Notes under the pieces: generated by a model
Told to the model about the DNA's origin: nothing
The model's input: only the letters and a program-made list of their open reading frames with translations
The model's database searches: none
Source of the DNA: a bacterium
GTDB lineage: Bacteria > Margulisbacteria > Marinamargulisbacteria > JAHFDA01
NCBI GenBank assembly: GCA_023249225.1
Contig: JAHFDA010000026.1
Location: 1,057-37,905 of the forward strand
Reading direction: 5' to 3'
DNA length: 36,849 bases
Part shown: one piece after another, positions 23,573-33,277 of the stretch
Layout of the letters: every line of letters begins with the position of its first letter
Numbering within the stretch: the first letter of the stretch is position 1
Translations under genes and position numbers: made by a program

Positions 23573-24757
23573 GTGAAAGAGAAACGTATTAAAAAAATGG
23601 CCCTGGGTGGGCGGACCGGGTCTTTTAATGCCAAGAAAAGCCTGTTTGGTGAATGGAAGACCACGCTGGGTTTTATGGCACGGGGAATTTTATTTATCGT
23701 CGGTCTTTTTACCCTCGACCACAGTTTAAAATTTTTACTCCACCCTCTTTTTCAACGTGCTCTCATATTCGATGAGTATTCGGGCAACATGGCACACCTG
23801 GCAGCCAAGTCTGAAGCGGATATTTATGTGTTTGGCGACTCGCGCGCCCAAAGTTTCTACGACCCGGATATTATTCAAAAAGTAACCGGCCAAACGGTGT
23901 TTAACGGAGGCCTCCCAGCCCGGTATATGCTGTACTACAGCATGGCAGCCACGCTGATTGAGCGACATCATCATGCCAAGTATTACGTCATCAACATTTC
24001 TCTCAACGAATTTGAACATCGCAATATTGAACAACGTATACTGCCTGATATAAGCGCGTTTTTGCCGTACCAAAATGAGTTGAGTTGCTATCAAGAAGTT
24101 CTGGGAAAACTAAAAGAATACGCTGTGACCTTGCCATTGAAAGAGTATATTGGACTGCAATTTGCACTTGCAAAATATACACATATTGTTGCTTACCGAT
24201 ACAACCGCAGTATGGTGCCGATCTTACGTCAGGCCATGGGACAATTGCCTGAAAGCAAAAATGGATTCATTCCACAGCTTGGTATGTTGTCACCAAGTTC
24301 CAAAGCACTTCCAGCACTCGCATTAGAACCTGAATTAGATGCCTATGCCATTGAAGTATTTGTTGATTTTATTAAACGATCCCAGGAAAACGGCATCCAT
24401 ATCATTTTGTGCATTGGCCCAGCCTATCGGCAATCCAATGATTTTAAGCTGAATGCAATTGAACAGCGCAATTTACTTTTAACCCGTGAGCTAGCCCAAA
24501 TTATGAATGTTCCTATGATTGAACTATTTGAGTCAGATTATAGTGAGTTTTGTGACCCCAGAAATTATAGCGATGTGTTTCATCTCAACCGCAAGGGCGC
24601 CACTATTTTTAGCCAAATATTTGCGGAAAAATTTATGGAATTATTGGCAATCCGCAACCCCGAAGAATATCGGCATTCACCCTTTTTTCCTAAAATCAGG
24701 CGCGAACAATATTTGGAACAAGTTCCGTTTTTAGTTGAAAGTAGGGGACATTCATGA
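23573..24757 (+). CDS. Membrane-anchored SGNH/GDSL-hydrolase-like protein
   Basis: 394 residues from a GTG start. An in-frame ATG at 23597 is an alternative, and neither has a good Shine-Dalgarno. After a basic N-terminus a single membrane helix spans ~32-50, so the rest should be periplasmic. Block I of the SGNH fold is YVFGDSRAQS (nucleophile S90). A block-V-like D334-x-x-H337 in SDVFHLNRKGA supplies the remaining catalytic pair. Such membrane-tethered SGNH proteins often add or remove acyl groups on cell-surface polysaccharides (the DltD and AlgX/AlgJ types), but there are no polysaccharide genes beside it, so the substrate is unknown. The second half looks richer in A and T than gyrA, a hint of different origin. 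It ends inside a 32-bp palindrome. Confidence 0.68.
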   Translation: MKEKRIKKMALGGRTGSFNAKKSLFGEWKTTLGFMARGILFIVGLFTLDHSLKFLLHPLFQRALIFDEYSGNMAHLAAKSEADIYVFGDSRAQSFYDPDIIQKVTGQTVFNGGLPARYMLYYSMAATLIERHHHAKYYVINISLNEFEHRNIEQRILPDISAFLPYQNELSCYQEVLGKLKEYAVTLPLKEYIGLQFALAKYTHIVAYRYNRSMVPILRQAMGQLPESKNGFIPQLGMLSPSSKALPALALEPELDAYAIEVFVDFIKRSQENGIHIILCIGPAYRQSNDFKLNAIEQRNLLLTRELAQIMNVPMIELFESDYSEFCDPRNYSDVFHLNRKGATIFSQIFAEKFMELLAIRNPEEYRHSPFFPKIRREQYLEQVPFLVESRGHS

Positions 24758-24770
24758 ATGTCCCCTACTT
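24739..24770. repeat. Perfect 32-bp palindrome containing the stop codons of two convergent genes
   Basis: AAGTAGGGGACATTCA is followed directly by its exact reverse complement, giving two 16-nt arms with no loop. The TGA of the SGNH gene (24755-24757) and the TAG of the phosphatase-HD gene (24765-24767, minus) both lie inside. The GTAGGGG...CCCCTAC ends are like those of dispersed REP/MITE-type palindromes in environmental bacteria. It could serve as a bidirectional transcription stop, although no T-run follows. On either reading it contributes the last few residues of both proteins. Confidence 0.8.
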
Positions 24771-26402
24771 AATCACCGGATAAAACTCCCAGCGCGGTGC
24801 CCTTTCGGCCAGTTCAACGGCCAGTCGTTCCAACAGCGCGACAAGTTCTGCATAGTTTTTTTTGATTAATAGCGGATTACTACGCAAAGCTTTTAGGTAC
24901 AGAGGTATCAAGTCTATGTATTTGTTTGCCAGGTAATCGTAGTGTGGGTCGTCGGCAGAGCCAAGCACCAGGCGCTGGGCGTTGTTGAGGTTGTCTGAAA
25001 GTTTTACCACCAAAACATCGGAATCCTGAATCACATGGCGTACATGTAAAAAGTAATCATTAATGCGGCGATGCTTTTGCTCCTTTTTAGACAGGGCAGT
25101 TTTGGCCACAGGGTCTTTTGGGGGGTTGCTTACAGCGGCAACAATTTTGGCTACCCGTTTGCCAAACAAGGTTTCTATCGTATCAAGCGATGCAGGATCT
25201 GGATGGTCTTCATGGGTGTCGTGCAAAAGTGCTGCAATCACCAGTTCTGGCTCGTCAATGCCCAGGGTTTCAATCAGTGTTAGCGCGACTTCAAGTGGAT
25301 GCAGCACGTAGCTTTCGCCGCCATGTTTTAAGTCACGCGCATGCACCGACAACATAAATTGAATGGCCTGCCAGACTTGTGGATATTTTTCTTTTGAAAA
25401 ATGACCTTCAATCTTGCCGATGAGTTCTTCGGCATCCCTTAAGGACGCTAGAAAAATTTCGGAGTGTCCGGACGTATTTTGCGACCAGATATGATTGAGC
25501 AGTGGATAAGCAAAAAAAGGCCGGTCTTTAAAACGCTGCGCAAGTGACTCCAGGGTTAAGGGGGCAAATGGATTTTGCTTAAAATCCTTTTCGTTTCCGT
25601 AAACCAGCGCATCCCAACCCAGCAGGCGGGCTAGTCCGCCACGCAACGGGCCTTTGATGGCAGTAAGCCCGGCGTTCGGAAACCAAAAATGGTTGTGAAA
25701 AAAATAAAAGTCCGCCAGGGTCTGGCCCCATAGCATGGCCAATAGTTGCCGCAGGGTGGTGGAATGGGCAAAAAGCATCACGCGCTTGGCACCAAAATCC
25801 TGCAAGTGTTCCAAGGCATGATTAAGCTGCATACGGTGGTCATACAGCGATTGTCCGGCCAGAGGGCGACGGTATTCCGGACTGCTGCGCTGGGTACGCT
25901 CGAGCAACCGGGCATAGCCAGGCAGAATGTGATGCAGGCCTGACTGGCCAAAATAATGTTGATAGCCGGCGTCGCATTCGTTAAAGGCTTCGTCGATGAT
26001 AATTTTGGAATGTGTAATGCCGGCAGCGGTTAAGTAGTGATAGGCAGTTTCATGCGTGCGGTCCAATCCGGTAAGGATGACAAGCTGTGGAGGAGCCAAA
26101 CCCAGGCGCGCAAATTTCTCACCACCCAAAACAGCTTCGCGTACGCCTTCGGGTGTCAGCGGAGAGTTATCCATACCGGGCATCTCATCAAGCGGTCTGG
26201 CGGGAACAAAATATTCTGAAAACAAATTGTGGTCGGACTGTCCGTGACGCACAAGGTAAAAGAGTTTAGGCAAAACCAGGTTTCGCTGCGGGTGCCACCT
26301 TCCATAATGATCCTCAATTTCCCTGGCCCAACGGTTCATGGCTTGCACGCTAAAATGGGTCTCGTCGTGCCAAACGGTGGCCAGGTGCTTATGGGCTAAC
26401 AC
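24765..26402 (-). CDS. Fusion: histidine phosphatase domain plus SpoT/MESH1-like HD hydrolase domain
   Basis: A 545-residue cytoplasmic protein with two catalytic modules. Residues ~45-260 form a histidine-phosphatase (phosphoglycerate-mutase-like) domain: LVRHGQSDHN with the phospho-acceptor H53, R115 in GLDRTHETA, an acidic NECDAG near 141, and the second histidine H213 in LFAHSTTLR. Residues ~310-540 form an HD domain of RelA/SpoT hydrolase type: H368 in YVLHPLEVA; HDTHED (H394, D395, E398, D399) matching the HDxxED of ppGpp hydrolases; and VKLSDNLNNAQ with D470, matching KLADRLHNM. No synthetase domain, TGS or ACT domain is present. All the key residues look intact. The likely substrate is ppGpp or a related nucleotide, with a second phosphate removed by the other domain, but this is inference. 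It converges with the SGNH gene. Confidence 0.8.
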   Translation of the reverse strand: MLAHKHLATVWHDETHFSVQAMNRWAREIEDHYGRWHPQRNLVLPKLFYLVRHGQSDHNLFSEYFVPARPLDEMPGMDNSPLTPEGVREAVLGGEKFARLGLAPPQLVILTGLDRTHETAYHYLTAAGITHSKIIIDEAFNECDAGYQHYFGQSGLHHILPGYARLLERTQRSSPEYRRPLAGQSLYDHRMQLNHALEHLQDFGAKRVMLFAHSTTLRQLLAMLWGQTLADFYFFHNHFWFPNAGLTAIKGPLRGGLARLLGWDALVYGNEKDFKQNPFAPLTLESLAQRFKDRPFFAYPLLNHIWSQNTSGHSEIFLASLRDAEELIGKIEGHFSKEKYPQVWQAIQFMLSVHARDLKHGGESYVLHPLEVALTLIETLGIDEPELVIAALLHDTHEDHPDPASLDTIETLFGKRVAKIVAAVSNPPKDPVAKTALSKKEQKHRRINDYFLHVRHVIQDSDVLVVKLSDNLNNAQRLVLGSADDPHYDYLANKYIDLIPLYLKALRSNPLLIKKNYAELVALLERLAVELAERAPRWEFYPVIK

Positions 26403-26438: not shown

Positions 26439-27740
26439 TTAAAAAGTTAGCAATGCCTGCACAATGAACGCCAGACTGTAACCGCTTAATAGATATTCTG
26501 AACTGGCATCGCCGTAATACAGGGCCAGGCTGGGACTCATCTGGAAGCCGTCCGTGATACTTTGGTTTAAACCGAGGACAGCAATGCCCGAACCATCGAT
26601 GGCATTTTGAATAAGATTGAACGACAGGCTGCTTGAGCGCCCCGGAAATTCCGACACCGAAACAAAAGCAGCTCCGTATAATTTTGAAAGATAATTGGCC
26701 CGGTACAAGCCGCTGGCAATCAACAGGGCTTTTTTATCGGCACGTAAAAGAATATTGTCGCCATAACCATCGCCGTTATAAAACAATTCAGCGCGCAGAT
26801 TAATGCGGTTGGGGCGCTCCCAGTGCAACTGCCGCGAAAGACCCAGGACCGCAACAGGGATCCATTGTCCTTGAGTTGAAGCCAACACCAATGAGCTGCC
26901 AGACTCAACGATCTTGTTTTGATTGGAGCCATAGGATAAGACCAGTTCACCGCTGCCATCAAAGCCCCAGAGAGGGCTAGAAAAATCCAATCCATAACTA
27001 AATGTTTTTTGATTAGCGCCCCATACCGAACTGCCAATTTCGGTTGCTCCCATCAGCCAGTCGGCACGGGCTAAAAAGGCAAAGTCATCCAAATTGTTGG
27101 CGTTGGTCATATCTATAAACAAGTAAGCATTATGATCTTGTCCAAAAGGGGCGTGGACACGGACGCCGTAGACGCCCGAACGCACAGCATTCAGGTTAAA
27201 AAAGTTGCGCTGTTCCCGGTTGATAAAATCAACCGGGTTCCAAAAGTAAGCCCGACCCCATTGTATAAATTGTTTGCCAGTGCGCACGTAGATGCTGCGA
27301 TCCAGGTTAAAATCGATGAACATTTCCTTAATATCAAAGGCCACCGTACTGGCGCTGGCGGTGGAAACAGCCGCTGGCAGATTGGTCAGACTGACATCGG
27401 CAAAGGCTTTAACACCCTTGGGCAGGCGCACATCTAAAAACAAGTCGGCTTGGGTGTAAGTCAAAAGAACATTGCTTGCAAAAGATCCAGTGCCCGCCAG
27501 CCACTGACGATTAACACCATAGGTGCTAAAGGAGTCTAGCCTGCCCGAAAAAGCCACCGAGTGCTGGTCGCCAAAAACCGCAATTTCACCGGGGTTGGCG
27601 CTTGTGACCAGGCTAGACTCGTCCGCAAACAAGGCCGATTCATCGGGTACTTGGTCGAGTAGGTTTTCACCACAAGCAGGGGAGACCAGAACGAAAAAGG
27701 TGACAAGGCTTAATGACAGTAATCTTAAAAAGGAAATCAC
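26439..27740 (-). CDS. Outer-membrane beta-barrel protein of the ABC export cluster
   Basis: 433 residues. A signal peptide covers ~1-24 (hydrophobic SFLRLLSLSLVTFFVLVSPACG). The mature part is long, rich in aromatic-alternating strands (for example FSGRLDSFSTYGV, INLRAELFYNGDGYG), and ends in phenylalanine (ALLTF), the usual signal for BAM-mediated outer-membrane insertion. A central stretch, RTGKQFIQWGRAYFWNPVDF, is shared with barrel proteins encoded beside LolA-like and FtsX-type genes. The GTG start overlaps the preceding stop as GTGA, so translation is coupled to the LolA-like gene. It probably forms the outer-membrane end point or receptor of the export route. The cargo is unknown. Confidence 0.72.
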   Translation of the reverse strand: MISFLRLLSLSLVTFFVLVSPACGENLLDQVPDESALFADESSLVTSANPGEIAVFGDQHSVAFSGRLDSFSTYGVNRQWLAGTGSFASNVLLTYTQADLFLDVRLPKGVKAFADVSLTNLPAAVSTASASTVAFDIKEMFIDFNLDRSIYVRTGKQFIQWGRAYFWNPVDFINREQRNFFNLNAVRSGVYGVRVHAPFGQDHNAYLFIDMTNANNLDDFAFLARADWLMGATEIGSSVWGANQKTFSYGLDFSSPLWGFDGSGELVLSYGSNQNKIVESGSSLVLASTQGQWIPVAVLGLSRQLHWERPNRINLRAELFYNGDGYGDNILLRADKKALLIASGLYRANYLSKLYGAAFVSVSEFPGRSSSLSFNLIQNAIDGSGIAVLGLNQSITDGFQMSPSLALYYGDASSEYLLSGYSLAFIVQALLTF

Positions 27741-28516
27741 TTACTTAGGTTTTCCAGGTAAGCCTTGCTAAAAGTTTCATCCGGAAGTTTTTTAAACGAA
27801 ATATCCGTAATGTCCCACAAGGTTTTGTTGCCTTTTTCAAATTCGTCCACCACCAGTTGCTTAACGGCAATGTAGTGGCCGTTGATTTCGGAATACTTCA
27901 GGTAGTACTGCGTGTTCATCAAGGTTCCTGACAGGCTAAAGCTTTGTTCTTTAAGGGGCAGGTAATTATCTTGACGCACCCACAAGATTTTTTTTGGGTA
28001 ATCCACATCGGGCACGGACGAAACGATTTCTATTTTGTAAACAGGAACCTTGCTCAACAGTTCTTCGCTTACCCGCTCCTTGCCATCAGGCTCCTTGGCG
28101 GCGGTGTATTGCAGCTCGTACTTGGGCGCTTCAAAATCTCCGGCGTTGGCGTCTGTTCCAGAAATACTTTCGGAACGACCCACGTGCTGAAAGGTGCGGG
28201 TGTTGCGCCGGTACATCCAAAAGTTTTTTCCGGATTTTAAGTAGCCGTTGCCTTTTTCAGACTCGGGCTTGGTCATCACCATTAAAAAGGTGTCATCCAA
28301 ATCCTTGGCAAAGTAGACGGCCTCGATCAATTTATCGCCTTGTTCGGCATCGCGCATGGCCATCTGTACTTTGGCAGTCACGTCCTCGTGAATCTTGCGC
28401 AGGCCGTCGAGGGTACGCAAGACGTCTTTCACGACCACGTCTGTGGCCGAGGCTTTTATGTGTGTAAAGAGGATTAAAACCAGGACCAGCCATAGTTTCA
28501 TACGAGGTGACTGCAT
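27737..28516 (-). CDS. Outer membrane lipoprotein-sorting (LolA-like) periplasmic protein
   Basis: 259 residues with a signal peptide (~6-24, LWLVLVLILFTHIKASA). It carries the hallmark block of the LolA-like outer-membrane lipoprotein-sorting family: GYLKSGKNFWMYRR, then FQHVGRSESISGTDANAGDFE. The fold is a half-barrel that shuttles acylated or hydrophobic cargo across the periplasm. The ATG at 28516 is preceded by AAGGAT at a good distance, so I prefer it over the ATG five codons later. It lies 3 nt after permease 2 and overlaps the barrel gene by 4 nt. Position and family suggest it hands cargo from the FtsX-type permeases to the barrel protein. Confidence 0.85.
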   Translation of the reverse strand: MQSPRMKLWLVLVLILFTHIKASATDVVVKDVLRTLDGLRKIHEDVTAKVQMAMRDAEQGDKLIEAVYFAKDLDDTFLMVMTKPESEKGNGYLKSGKNFWMYRRNTRTFQHVGRSESISGTDANAGDFEAPKYELQYTAAKEPDGKERVSEELLSKVPVYKIEIVSSVPDVDYPKKILWVRQDNYLPLKEQSFSLSGTLMNTQYYLKYSEINGHYIAVKQLVVDEFEKGNKTLWDITDISFKKLPDETFSKAYLENLSK

Positions 28517-28519
28517 ACG

Positions 28520-30235
28520 TTATCCTTTCGCGTGCCCAAAGGCCGAGGCCGGACTTAAGTTGGCGGCCTGCCGGGCAGGCAAATAAGCGGCGCCCAACAT
28601 GAATACCAGCAACAAGATCAGATTTTGCGCCGCGTGCCAGAAAGTCGGAATAAAATACAAGCGCCGGTCGACCATGATCATGTTAAGCGGGTTATCGACG
28701 CCAAATTGAATCAGCATCAGCAGTTTAATAATCACTGCGGATACCAGGATGCCGGCCGTCCAGCCAAAAATAGCCAGGAAAAAAGCCTCCCATAAAAAAA
28801 GCCATTTTACTTGCGAACGTTGAATTCCGATGGCGCGCATGGCGCCAATTTCTTGCACGCGTTCGCGGATGGTCATGCGCAAAGAATTAAGCACGCCCAC
28901 CATGATAATAAAGAGCAGCACCGAAGCGCCAATGAGCGCGGCCGCATTAAGCACGCCTTCCATGGCCACCACCTGGCTGGCTACCTCATACATGGTGGCC
29001 ACATCGGTAATGGGTTCGGCTTGCGGAAACTTCATGATGGACTTCATTTTTTTGTCAAAGCCATCATAGTTGTGGGTGCGCTCAAGCAGCGTCCACTCGG
29101 GCGCAACCAGTCTCGCGATTTCACCGGACGATGCCGGGAGCCATTGTTTTAGAGGGGCTGTGTTGGCCGGAAGCTGGTAGTTATAAACTTTAAAAAAATC
29201 TTCATTGTTCATAAAAATCAAATCACCCGACAGTGTGGGCGGAAAATCAACCACGGCAGCCACGGGCAGGGTAAATAAAGCAGGCTCGGTCTGAAATTTA
29301 GCTTGGTAACTTAACGTGAGCAAGTCTCCAGGATGTTTTTGCAGACGGGCGGCCAGCAGGGAACTTAACAGACATCCTTTTGATTCAGGCGACCAGTGCG
29401 CATCTGATACTGGAAAATGTTTAAGTACATGGTTTGTCGAAGCCTCCAGCGCAAAAGGTGCCACGGCTACAGACGTGCCCACAAGATTTGCGGCAATATA
29501 CGCAGGCTGGGGCTTAAGTGCTTGCCACAGGTGATCCGCTTGCGCGGGAGCGAGTTTGGGTTTTTTAAGCAGCACACGCAAGGCGCCCGTTTCGTGTGGT
29601 CGGTAACCCATGATGGCCTTAAAATCGTTTTGGGGCATAAAGATGGCCCAGTCCATCCACACATTTTGGCTTTTCATGATGGCGGCTACTACCAGCGTGG
29701 CGGTGTTGCTCTGGCCATAGATATTTTGAAAACGCAGATGGATGGCGTCGCCCACTTTTACTTTAAGACCTTTGGCCTTTTGTTCTGAAAGCAACACTGG
29801 GTTTGGATAACTGGGGTGGATAAAGTCGTTGTAGCTGCCTGTGTTAAGCACAAAAGATTCAGTAAATTTCTGATTAATTTCCAGGCCCACCAGGTACACA
29901 TAGTCACCTTTGCCGTTGCCTACCGCACGGGCCAGGGTGCCGGTCGATTCCTCAACCCGCATAATGCCGTCAACGTTCTTGTGAATAGCATCCAGGAAAC
30001 GGGCCTTGTCGCGGATGACCGGCGACATAAAACGACCCTGTTCTACCACGTTAACCTGTACGTGGCCGGACATGTAAATCACGATGCGATTTAAGATCGT
30101 GTCGGTCAGGCCCTCGGTAAAGGCAAATGAAACGGTCAGTACCATGATGCCAAAGGCAATGGCACTGCCCAGCAGCAAATTACGCCGCCGTTGCCGCAGA
30201 AAATTTCGGAATGCCAAAAATACAAGGGTTTTCAC
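28520..30235 (-). CDS. FtsX-like (MacB/LolC-type) ABC transporter permease 2
   Basis: 571 residues with the four-helix MacB/LolCE architecture: TM1 at ~20-40 after RNFLRQRRRNLLLG, a large periplasmic domain to ~residue 405, then three C-terminal helices. The cytoplasmic coupling motif RERVQEIGAMRAIGIQRSQV follows TM2, and the last cytosolic residues are PARQAANLSPASAFGHAKG. It should pair with permease 1 and the ATPase as a mechanotransmission-type transporter that moves substrate within the periplasm instead of through the membrane. The gene is 7 nt downstream of permease 1. Confidence 0.88.
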   Translation of the reverse strand: MKTLVFLAFRNFLRQRRRNLLLGSAIAFGIMVLTVSFAFTEGLTDTILNRIVIYMSGHVQVNVVEQGRFMSPVIRDKARFLDAIHKNVDGIMRVEESTGTLARAVGNGKGDYVYLVGLEINQKFTESFVLNTGSYNDFIHPSYPNPVLLSEQKAKGLKVKVGDAIHLRFQNIYGQSNTATLVVAAIMKSQNVWMDWAIFMPQNDFKAIMGYRPHETGALRVLLKKPKLAPAQADHLWQALKPQPAYIAANLVGTSVAVAPFALEASTNHVLKHFPVSDAHWSPESKGCLLSSLLAARLQKHPGDLLTLSYQAKFQTEPALFTLPVAAVVDFPPTLSGDLIFMNNEDFFKVYNYQLPANTAPLKQWLPASSGEIARLVAPEWTLLERTHNYDGFDKKMKSIMKFPQAEPITDVATMYEVASQVVAMEGVLNAAALIGASVLLFIIMVGVLNSLRMTIRERVQEIGAMRAIGIQRSQVKWLFLWEAFFLAIFGWTAGILVSAVIIKLLMLIQFGVDNPLNMIMVDRRLYFIPTFWHAAQNLILLLVFMLGAAYLPARQAANLSPASAFGHAKG

Positions 30236-30242
30236 TTGACCC

Positions 30243-31769
30243 TCAATCGCGCGACATGGCGTCGAGAGGCGTAATTTTACGCGCCACAGACACCGGGTAC
30301 AGCACCGCTAAAAAAGTCACAAAACACAGCAAGATGGCGCAGAGCAGTAGATCGACCAGATCCAGCCGGGGTTGAAAAGTGTCGCCTCCGTAAAAGATTT
30401 GCAGAATTTCATTTTGCGTGGACAGGTGCAGCATGGCCAGCAGCCGTACCAGCAAGCTTCCGGCCAAAATTCCCAGGCCACCAAAAAAAGCCGCCAGAAT
30501 GCCTGTTTCGGCCACAAACATGTTTGACACAAAAGCACGCGGGGCACCCACGGCGCGCATCATGCCGATTTCGGTGATCCGTTCCATGGCGGCAATGCTT
30601 AAAGTATTCATAATGATGATGACCGCCACAAAAAAAATAAAGCTGACAAAAACCAGCAGCGCGCCTTTCATAATGAGTGCCATCTGGCCCAGCATGCCAA
30701 TGGCCTGACTCCAGCGGATGGCTTTTAAGGGAATCCGCTCGCTTTTAAAAAACGCCGTCAATTCCTTAACCGCTTCTTTGGGGGAATAACCGGGCTTCAG
30801 CTTAACCATGATGGCGTTAAAGGTGCCGTCCTCCCAGTTTGCAGCAGGGGTTTTGGAAACAGTTTTCTGAACTGTAAAAAGTTCCTTGGATAGAGGTTTG
30901 CCTCCGCTTAAAGTTGCGCCAGTATCAAAATCAAAAGATTCTTCTAGCGTGCCCGCTTCCGCTTCGAGCAATTTGGATTGGGCCGTGGTAGGGGCCACCT
31001 TTTTGGTTTCGGCATTGAAATAGCCCACACATTCGCGCAGCGACTCTATATCAAGCAGGCTGTAAAACCCCAGCAGTTTATTGAGTTCTTTAAACTTAAA
31101 TACGCCTAAAACTTCGCTCGGAATATCCAAGCTGGCGTTTTTTTGGCTTAACCCTAAAAACACCAACTGCTGACTTAGCCTTAACTTGTCGCCATCCTGT
31201 CTGGCGGCAGGGCTTAGATGATGGGTGTTAAGCGCCTGTCCTTTAGGAATAGCCCAAAATCCAGAAAAGTCATAAATACGTTCGCGGATGGTGCTGCTTA
31301 AAAGCACACCCTGCTGGCCAGCGTCTGGGTAGCTTCCTTCAAGCACAGCTAAATTTTCGCCGTAAAAATTGCGGTAAGCGTTAAAGTTAACCCCCAGCAA
31401 ATAATGATCCACGGGCTGACCGGATTCATTCAGCACCCAAACATAACCCACTACCACGGGCAAGATCTTTTGAATATAAGGCAGCGCAAGCAACTTTGGC
31501 TTGAGGGTTGGGTAAGCGGTAATGGACTCCAGGGTTTGTCCGGACATGCTGGCCAATACAGATTCATTGATCTGCTTGTCAGCGGCAAGAATGACATCAC
31601 CGCTAAAGCCTTCGACCACGTTTTTTTGTAAACCCTCATTAAGTCCGGTAATAATGCCATTGCCTACGGTCAGCACCAGCGATCCTAAAAACAAAATGAA
31701 ACCGATTACAAGGGTCTTGCCCTTGTGTCGAAAAATATTGCGCCAGGCGATACGGAAAATAAGACCCAT
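30243..31769 (-). CDS. FtsX-like (MacB/LolC-type) ABC transporter permease 1
   Basis: 508 residues and the same plan as its neighbour: N-terminal RIAWRNIFRHKGKTL and TM1 at ~20-40, a periplasmic domain to ~370, then helices near 378-400, 428-450 and 475-497. The coupling motif reads MERITEIGMMRAVGAPRAFV. The C-terminus PVSVARKITPLDAMSRD is typical of LolC/E-type subunits. It starts 5 nt after the ATPase stop and differs enough from permease 2 to suggest a heterodimer, as in LolCE. The substrate is not known. Confidence 0.88.
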   Translation of the reverse strand: MGLIFRIAWRNIFRHKGKTLVIGFILFLGSLVLTVGNGIITGLNEGLQKNVVEGFSGDVILAADKQINESVLASMSGQTLESITAYPTLKPKLLALPYIQKILPVVVGYVWVLNESGQPVDHYLLGVNFNAYRNFYGENLAVLEGSYPDAGQQGVLLSSTIRERIYDFSGFWAIPKGQALNTHHLSPAARQDGDKLRLSQQLVFLGLSQKNASLDIPSEVLGVFKFKELNKLLGFYSLLDIESLRECVGYFNAETKKVAPTTAQSKLLEAEAGTLEESFDFDTGATLSGGKPLSKELFTVQKTVSKTPAANWEDGTFNAIMVKLKPGYSPKEAVKELTAFFKSERIPLKAIRWSQAIGMLGQMALIMKGALLVFVSFIFFVAVIIIMNTLSIAAMERITEIGMMRAVGAPRAFVSNMFVAETGILAAFFGGLGILAGSLLVRLLAMLHLSTQNEILQIFYGGDTFQPRLDLVDLLLCAILLCFVTFLAVLYPVSVARKITPLDAMSRD

Positions 31770-31774
31770 ACTTT

Positions 31775-32449
31775 CTAGGTGATCAGCAGACCATCCCTAA
31801 TTTTGACAATGTTGCGGGCGTATTTGAGTACTTCCGGATCATGGGTGGAAAAAATAAAAGTGGTGCCTTGCTCTTCGTTTAAACGCTGCATCAGCGAGAG
31901 GATAGCGTTGCCGGTTTCGGAATCCAGGTTGGCCGTGGGCTCGTCTGCCAGCACAAGTTGCGGCTGGGTTACCAGGGCACGGGCAATGGCCACACGCTGA
32001 CGTTGGCCGCCCGAAAGTTCCGAGGGGCGATGCTGCATGTGGCTTTCCATTTGCACATGGCGCAACATGGTCTTGGCACGTTCGCGGATTTCAGAGGGTT
32101 TGCCAGAATGCATCAGCAGCAGCGGAAACTCAACATTTTCTAAAACCGAAAGTACCGGAATCAGGTTAAACGATTGAAAGATAAAGCCAATCTTATAAAG
32201 GCGCAGCCGAGTCAGGTCTTTGTCGTTTAATTTTGAAACATCCTGCCCGTCGACCAACAGCGTACCAGCCGTGGGTTGGTCGACGCAGCCCATTAAATTG
32301 AGTAAGGTCGTTTTGCCGCTACCCGAAGGACCCACGATAGACATAAAGGCACCTTTTTCGATAACCATGCTCACGCCCCGCAGGGCCCTGACGCTGGTAT
32401 TGCCCAGGGGATATTCCTTAGAGATGTCTTTAAGTTCGATGAGGGACAC
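31775..32449 (-). CDS. ABC transporter ATP-binding protein, LolD/MacB type
   Basis: 224 residues with a complete nucleotide-binding domain: Walker A GPSGSGKTT (~40-48), Q-loop FIFQSFNLIPVLSVLENVEFPL, signature LSGGQRQRVAIARAL, Walker B LVLADEPTANLD and the H-loop STHD. The FNLIPVLSVLENVEFPL stretch is typical of the LolD/FtsE/MacB subclass that partners FtsX-type permeases. It starts with GTG, 15 nt after the transglycosylase gene, and leads the two permeases, the LolA-like gene and the barrel gene. It is unlikely to be the housekeeping LolD because of these neighbours. Confidence 0.92.
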   Translation of the reverse strand: MSLIELKDISKEYPLGNTSVRALRGVSMVIEKGAFMSIVGPSGSGKTTLLNLMGCVDQPTAGTLLVDGQDVSKLNDKDLTRLRLYKIGFIFQSFNLIPVLSVLENVEFPLLLMHSGKPSEIRERAKTMLRHVQMESHMQHRPSELSGGQRQRVAIARALVTQPQLVLADEPTANLDSETGNAILSLMQRLNEEQGTTFIFSTHDPEVLKYARNIVKIRDGLLIT

Positions 32450-32464
32450 GCAATGCAGATTTTA

Positions 32465-33277
32465 TCATGGTGTCGCTTCCCAATTCAGCCCGTGTTCCGC
32501 GCCGACCTTTTGTAAAATGGGCATCAAACCCTGAAACACGCGGTGCAGGTACGCCTTGGAGGTCTGACTGCTGATGCGTGATTTTTGGATTCCGGTTTCA
32601 ACCAGCCAGTCTTTGGCGCGGTTGGGGCCAGCGTTGTAGGCCAGAATCAAGGCGGGTTCCAGGTGGCTTTGACCGGGTTCGGGGACATGTTCAAAATTTG
32701 CATACGGGGCTGTGCTGGCAACATCATGCAAATACAGGGCAGCCAGGATCAGGGCGTCTGGTAAAGACGTACGATCAAGCCAGGAAATATCTTGTTCGGA
32801 GCCCTGTGCGTAAACAAATTGCGTGGGAGCATGGGCATTGTAGGTTTGAAAAAAATCTTCAACCCAAGCATGTTCTGTGCTTTCGGGAACATTGTATTTT
32901 TCGATCAGCATGCGTGTGGTGTCGGGGTTCATTTGCATGGGGCCGTCGATATGGCCTTCGACCTGTCCGCCTGATTCTTGCAAAAAAATGGCCGGAACAA
33001 AGTACGGAGAAAAACCGGCTGCTTCTGAAACAACACCGGCCACTTCTAAATAGGGCAGGGCGGCTTTAAAGCTGTGTTGCAGATATTGCACCAGATTGGC
33101 AGCCGGAACAGTATTCCAATCGGCCTTGGATGTTTCGGTGTTCCAGGTGAGTTTATCAATGGCTTCCCAAGCGCCGCGATTACTGGGATTTCCGGCATTT
33201 CTTAAGTCTCTGCTTTTGTCGTAAGGCAGACATTTGCCTTGTGATCTAAAGCTGACATTGGGGTCGCAACTGACCAT
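32465..33277 (-). CDS. Lytic-transglycosylase-like (SLT fold) protein
   Basis: 270 residues. The SLT signature is present: FLQESGGQ with the probable catalytic glutamate E101, GPMQMNP at 112-118, and AYNAGP at 213-218. These place it with soluble lytic transglycosylases, which cleave peptidoglycan with formation of 1,6-anhydro ends. No signal peptide is visible, and an in-frame stop lies just upstream of the ATG. It may therefore leave the cell by an unusual route or be misannotated at its start. The N-terminal ~60 residues are polar with two cysteines. It is first in the leftward ABC cluster, 15 nt before the ATPase gene, and may open the wall for the trans-envelope complex (inference). Confidence 0.72.
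   Translation of the reverse strand: MVSCDPNVSFRSQGKCLPYDKSRDLRNAGNPSNRGAWEAIDKLTWNTETSKADWNTVPAANLVQYLQHSFKAALPYLEVAGVVSEAAGFSPYFVPAIFLQESGGQVEGHIDGPMQMNPDTTRMLIEKYNVPESTEHAWVEDFFQTYNAHAPTQFVYAQGSEQDISWLDRTSLPDALILAALYLHDVASTAPYANFEHVPEPGQSHLEPALILAYNAGPNRAKDWLVETGIQKSRISSQTSKAYLHRVFQGLMPILQKVGAEHGLNWEATP

Follow-up and report, generated by a model that had tools for sequence, protein, structure and literature searches.

The window analysed here, a stretch of 36,849 nucleotides, lies on a 37.9-kb contig that also carries gyrA, gyrB and recF, and contains a gene in which a histidine phosphatase domain and a RelA/SpoT-type HD domain are joined in one chain. The gene starts with GTG (the next ATG corresponds to M22), with no clear Shine-Dalgarno sequence upstream of this start, and its frame has no internal stop and runs continuously across the domain junction. 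The features of the locus are the following:

24739-24770, no strand: perfect palindrome of 32 bp, spanning the stop codons of the fusion gene (minus) and of its convergent neighbour (plus)
24765-26402, minus strand: fusion gene, 545 aa
24768-24968, minus strand: helical C-terminal extension, residues 479-545, with a (K/R)YxxLIPLY motif
24969-25367, minus strand: RelA/SpoT-type HD domain, residues 346-478 (Pfam HD_4, 7.8e-16; TIGR00691, 3.7e-19; also structural model, Foldseek and alignment)
25443-25526, minus strand: junction or linker, about residues 293-320, with the low-confidence start of the model and then the first HD helix
25527-25655, minus strand: C-terminal tail of the phosphatase half, residues 250-292, with the motif F(K)xNPFxxxTxExxxxx
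25656-26261, minus strand: histidine phosphatase branch-1 domain, residues 48-249 (Pfam PF00300 His_Phos_1, 1.1e-17)
26439-33277, minus strand: tightly spaced run of genes upstream of the fusion gene, the last of which ends 36 bp before it

The upstream run encodes an SLT-like lytic transglycosylase, an ABC ATPase, two FtsX/MacB permeases, a LolA-like protein (2.3e-36) and a beta-barrel-like protein without Pfam match, and has the appearance of a transport set directed at the outer membrane. A scan around the fusion gene gave nothing above chance, with neither a promoter-like site nor a convincing terminator between it and the run, and the fusion gene is possibly co-transcribed with the run; a functional link between the two is not evident. 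At the other end, the palindrome, whose 24-base core occurs once in the genome, is possibly a bidirectional terminator lacking a T-run. The gene that follows gyrA (23573-24757, plus strand) encodes a 394-aa protein with no Pfam match, which by eye resembles the SGNH family (FGDSRAQSFYDP ... DVFHLNRKGA) and has a GC content of 0.42, against about 0.50 in its neighbours.

The His_Phos_1 and HD_4 scores are both well over the Pfam curated cut-offs and far exceed what chance would produce, and the base composition of both halves is within the range of the adjacent genes. The spoT_relA model of NCBIfam matches the protein (3.7e-19) solely in its hydrolase part, so that synthetase, TGS and ACT domains are absent. 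The first-pass annotation had described a single 545-residue chain carrying both domains and devoid of synthetase or regulatory domains, and in this it was right; the profile searches in Pfam and NCBIfam further identify the C-terminal half as a RelA/SpoT-type HD domain and not a generic HD. The residues it had named (H53, R115 and H213 in the phosphatase half; H368, HDTHED at 394-399 and D470 in the HD half) are all at these positions. In the phosphatase half they belong to a catalytic set formed by R52, H53 (the nucleophile), N59, R115, E142 (the general-acid candidate) and H213, that is, the RHG histidine, second arginine, second histidine and acidic general acid of branch-1 histidine phosphatases, while the metal-binding and catalytic set of the HD half is complete (H368, H394, D395, E398, D399, D470 and N474).

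Searched against the PDB, the HD half matches RSH enzymes at 7e-12 as a single sequence and at 4e-53 as a profile. Its AlphaFold model, built on a 28-sequence alignment, has a pLDDT of 89.5 and a pTM of 0.88, with helix 1 of the HD fold starting from about residue 315, and the top 43 Foldseek matches to this model in the PDB are RSH proteins throughout; they include SpoT, Rel, RelH, the small alarmone hydrolase (SAH) of P. aeruginosa, a (p)ppApp hydrolase and MESH1 with NADPH or with PAPS, the last of which ranks first. Alignment-based modelling covered the HD half only, and the full-chain model, built without an alignment, is poor (pLDDT 40.5). In the HD-domain tree, the fusion HD falls in one clade (99/99) with free-standing SAHs of actinobacteriophages, Actinomycetota and Saccharibacteria, outside a separate group (100/99) of long Rel sequences that includes the Rel of the source genome itself. 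The fusion HD also has in common with this clade the motifs HDTxEDHP, V(S/T)NP and (K/R)YxxLIPLY, the last of which lies in the C-terminal extension and is common to the phage and actinobacterial SAHs.

Like MESH1, C. glutamicum RelH, XccSAH and P. aeruginosa SAH, the fusion thus has the HD_4 fold and the H..HDxxED..D..N site and no synthetase or regulatory domain; those SAHs, however, have a single domain and about 180-200 aa, whereas the HD of the fusion forms the C-terminal half of a chain with a second enzyme domain, has a longer helical C-terminus and carries a lysine at the position of RelSeq R44. The nearest proteins by sequence are the actinobacteriophage and actinobacterial 'SpoT-like' SAHs (Microbacterium phage Cece gp236 and its kin; 1e-16 over residues 323-506), which share HDTxEDHP, VSNP and (K/R)YxxLIPLY with the fusion but are free-standing, of about 240-260 aa, and have no phosphatase domain. 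The long RSH enzymes (Rel, SpoT) have a homologous hydrolase domain, placed at the N-terminus and not, as in the fusion, at the C-terminus, and possess the SYNTH, TGS and ACT domains that the fusion does not. The C-terminal half is therefore an SAH-type domain in a fusion, rather than a plain SAH.

The main departure from the family is K359, which occupies the position of the HD motif 1 arginine (RelSeq R44), an arginine in all 27 relatives of an alignment that is ungapped there. In RelSeq this residue contacts the guanine and N148 and pairs with D78, and the R44Q substitution abolishes hydrolase activity (PMC13299517). In addition, H397, within the HDxxED motif, stands where the relatives have V, I, L or a similar hydrophobic residue. 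The RelA/SpoT site had been annotated as intact, which holds for its metal-binding and catalytic residues but not for these two positions. Because of K359, ppGpp is uncertain as the substrate of the HD half, which is probably catalytically active. The proposed ppGpp specificity is weakened accordingly, and so is the use of HDxxED as a signature of ppGpp hydrolases, since XccSAH acts on (p)ppGpp, pGpp, pppApp and NADPH (PMC9765508), and MESH1 also hydrolyses the 3'-phosphate of CoA (PMC13221220).

The setting of the phage relatives bears on the same question. In Cece (positions 132000-150000; locus L182, and likewise L039, L043 and L048), the SAH gene lies in a cluster with genes for a PRPP transferase-like protein, NAPRTase, the PnuC transporter and a NadR-like adenylyltransferase, and this NAD-salvage cluster is followed by a CCA/polyA-head gene. 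The cluster suggests NADP(H), rather than ppGpp, as a possible substrate of the phage SAHs, hinting at NADP(H)-type substrates for the HD half of the fusion, which is about 30-37% identical to the phage proteins.

The phosphatase half is less closely connected to characterised enzymes. Searched alone against the PDB, its best match is at 0.018; with a four-sequence profile the best match is glucosyl-3-phosphoglycerate phosphatase (4pz9, 8.7e-17), and many other structures match too. It shares RHG, the arginine, the glutamate, the second histidine and the His_Phos_1 domain with branch-1 enzymes such as PhoE, glucosyl-3-phosphoglycerate phosphatase and the phosphoglycerate mutase family, but the kinship is distant, and the fusion alone is joined to an HD domain. 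Because the relation is only distant, no substrate can be named for this half, which is on sequence grounds a predicted phosphatase. It aligns with phosphatases of Pseudarthrobacter and of large phage contigs having a YYRPPGGES-like stretch, which in the fusion reads EYRRPLAGQS; a histidine phosphatase of the YYRPPGGEN type is found near a CCA-adding enzyme in large phage contigs (L174, 1852-4678). The NPFxxxTxE tail (about residues 274-292) also ends a free-standing 290-aa phosphatase in another genome of the phylum (G033, locus L037), which places the junction at about residues 293-314, directly ahead of helix 1 of the HD model; for both halves, relatives that stand alone stop or begin near this point. 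The G033 phosphatase relative is 2 bp downstream of another ORF (L037, 473-1360 and 1363-2235), which has no Pfam match and by eye resembles a nucleoside 2-deoxyribosyltransferase (GLGLELGWADILGIPIICL).

Free-standing relatives thus exist for each half, and their combination is very rare. Among 74 genomes of the phylum, none of the 73 others has a second copy, and about 1,570 further genomes (13 named, 380 Patescibacteria, 392 Planctomycetota, 396 Actinomycetota and 400 Chloroflexota, the phylum names being inferred from the named locus taken as the centre of each set) gave only separate HD or phosphatase matches, with a limit of 1e-18 for the last three phyla, at which only a good full-length relative would register. 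Plasmids and phages gave HD or phosphatase matches singly, the defence library gave no match to the fusion, and peptide-pattern scans with the whole protein found nothing in genome contigs or in viral contigs (IMG/VR). An HD pattern scan of 84,980 species, based on the alignment with the phage SAHs, recovered 266 HD relatives; in the best 80 of these the match is confined to the HD half, and a motif search, which as a control recovered eight of nine known phosphatase loci, detected no RHG-type phosphatase within roughly 6 kb of any of the 80. Likewise, none of 83 loci around HD relatives contains an adjacent phosphatase and HD gene pair. These negative results mark limits of sensitivity and are no proof of absence. 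As no examined relative has both genes adjacent, there is no independent tie between the two activities.

No precedent for a fusion of a histidine phosphatase with an RSH hydrolase was found in the literature searched, in agreement with the first-pass annotation, which had named no characterised example of the architecture. The fusion looks real and, as far as could be tested, undescribed. To our knowledge, this would be the first RSH hydrolase domain seen in one chain with a histidine phosphatase.

The source genome encodes one long Rel, on another contig than the fusion, which is full-length with the usual hydrolase motifs and is available for housekeeping ppGpp turnover. No other SYNTH domain was found in the genome (assembly 97% complete), and no toxic SAS gene lies alongside the fusion gene or elsewhere in the genome. 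An antitoxin role of the toxSAS type was thus rejected, the genome having no small alarmone synthetase. Because the long Rel holds the only synthetase domain, such a role is unlikely and the SAH-type domain is an 'orphan', which also weakens the suggestion of a toxin-nucleotide detoxifier.

With the reading frame, the two families, the catalytic residues, the HD fold and the SAH-like placement established, the account that we favour, and hold to be fairly probable, is a true fusion of two enzymes, a branch-1 phosphatase and an SAH-type metal-dependent hydrolase, that arose recently or very locally and in which we infer that both active sites are functional. The N-terminal half would remove a phosphomonoester via phospho-H53, and the C-terminal half, dependent on a metal (probably Mn2+), would act on a nucleotide or nucleotide cofactor of the class of (p)ppGpp, (p)ppApp, NADP(H), CoA or PAPS, releasing either a 3'-pyrophosphate or a 2'/3'-phosphate. 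The protein, in which two known families are arranged in a new way, would most likely be a bifunctional phosphohydrolase whose substrates resemble nucleotides or cofactors. Three points speak against this account, namely K359, which could reduce or abolish hydrolysis, the fact that the fusion is a singleton in a draft assembly, so that no conservation points to selection on both sites, and the poor quality of the full-chain model, which bears on the geometry of the two sites. A mis-joined or contaminant contig might have produced the fusion, given 121 contigs, 2.67% contamination and its occurrence in no second genome, but the frame is unbroken across the junction, the contig bears the gyrase genes and recF and the composition of the gene resembles that of its neighbours, which makes an assembly or binning artefact very improbable. 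One half might also be catalytically silent, for example if the HD, with K359 in place of an arginine invariant in the aligned relatives and essential in RelSeq, and with H397 in place of a hydrophobic residue, bound a nucleotide uncut and regulated the phosphatase. This we regard as unlikely: every metal-binding and catalytic residue is retained, the change from arginine to lysine is conservative and the HD1 motif is absent from entire SAH subgroups, pbcSpo, pbcSpo2 and divSpo (PMC5954133).

Further readings concern what the two-enzyme fusion would act on. If a MESH1-like HD trimmed NADPH, CoA or PAPS and the phosphatase worked on a related product, this would agree with the NAD-salvage neighbourhood of gp236 and its kin, with the NADPH hydrolysis of XccSAH, with CoA as a substrate of MESH1 and with MESH1-PAPS as the top structural match. 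Yet the NAD setting belongs to one kind of phage and not to the source genome, no NAD genes were recognised beside the fusion within the window and the identity to the phage proteins is low, so that this reading is possible but rather unlikely. The two-step breakdown of alarmones suggested by the first-pass annotation, in which the HD would cut the 3' end of (p)ppGpp or (p)ppApp and the phosphatase strip the product towards the nucleoside, suits two fused domains that both remove phosphate groups, one of them SAH-like; it has to contend with K359, with the closest characterised phosphatases by profile being sugar-phosphate and phosphoglycerate phosphatases and not nucleotidases, with the missing gene pair at all 83 loci and with the complete Rel already present, and seems to us quite improbable. 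More generally, that the phosphatase and the SAH-type HD work one after the other on the same phosphorylated nucleotide or cofactor, by a route not previously described, is an idea we hold as doubtful.

The substrates of SAHs are debated, with ppGpp, pppApp, NADPH and CoA all cut by members, as is their physiological role, and a natural fusion of an SAH with a phosphatase offers a rare hint at the substrates of these enzymes. As the two activities would reside in one protein, they would be separable by single point mutants.
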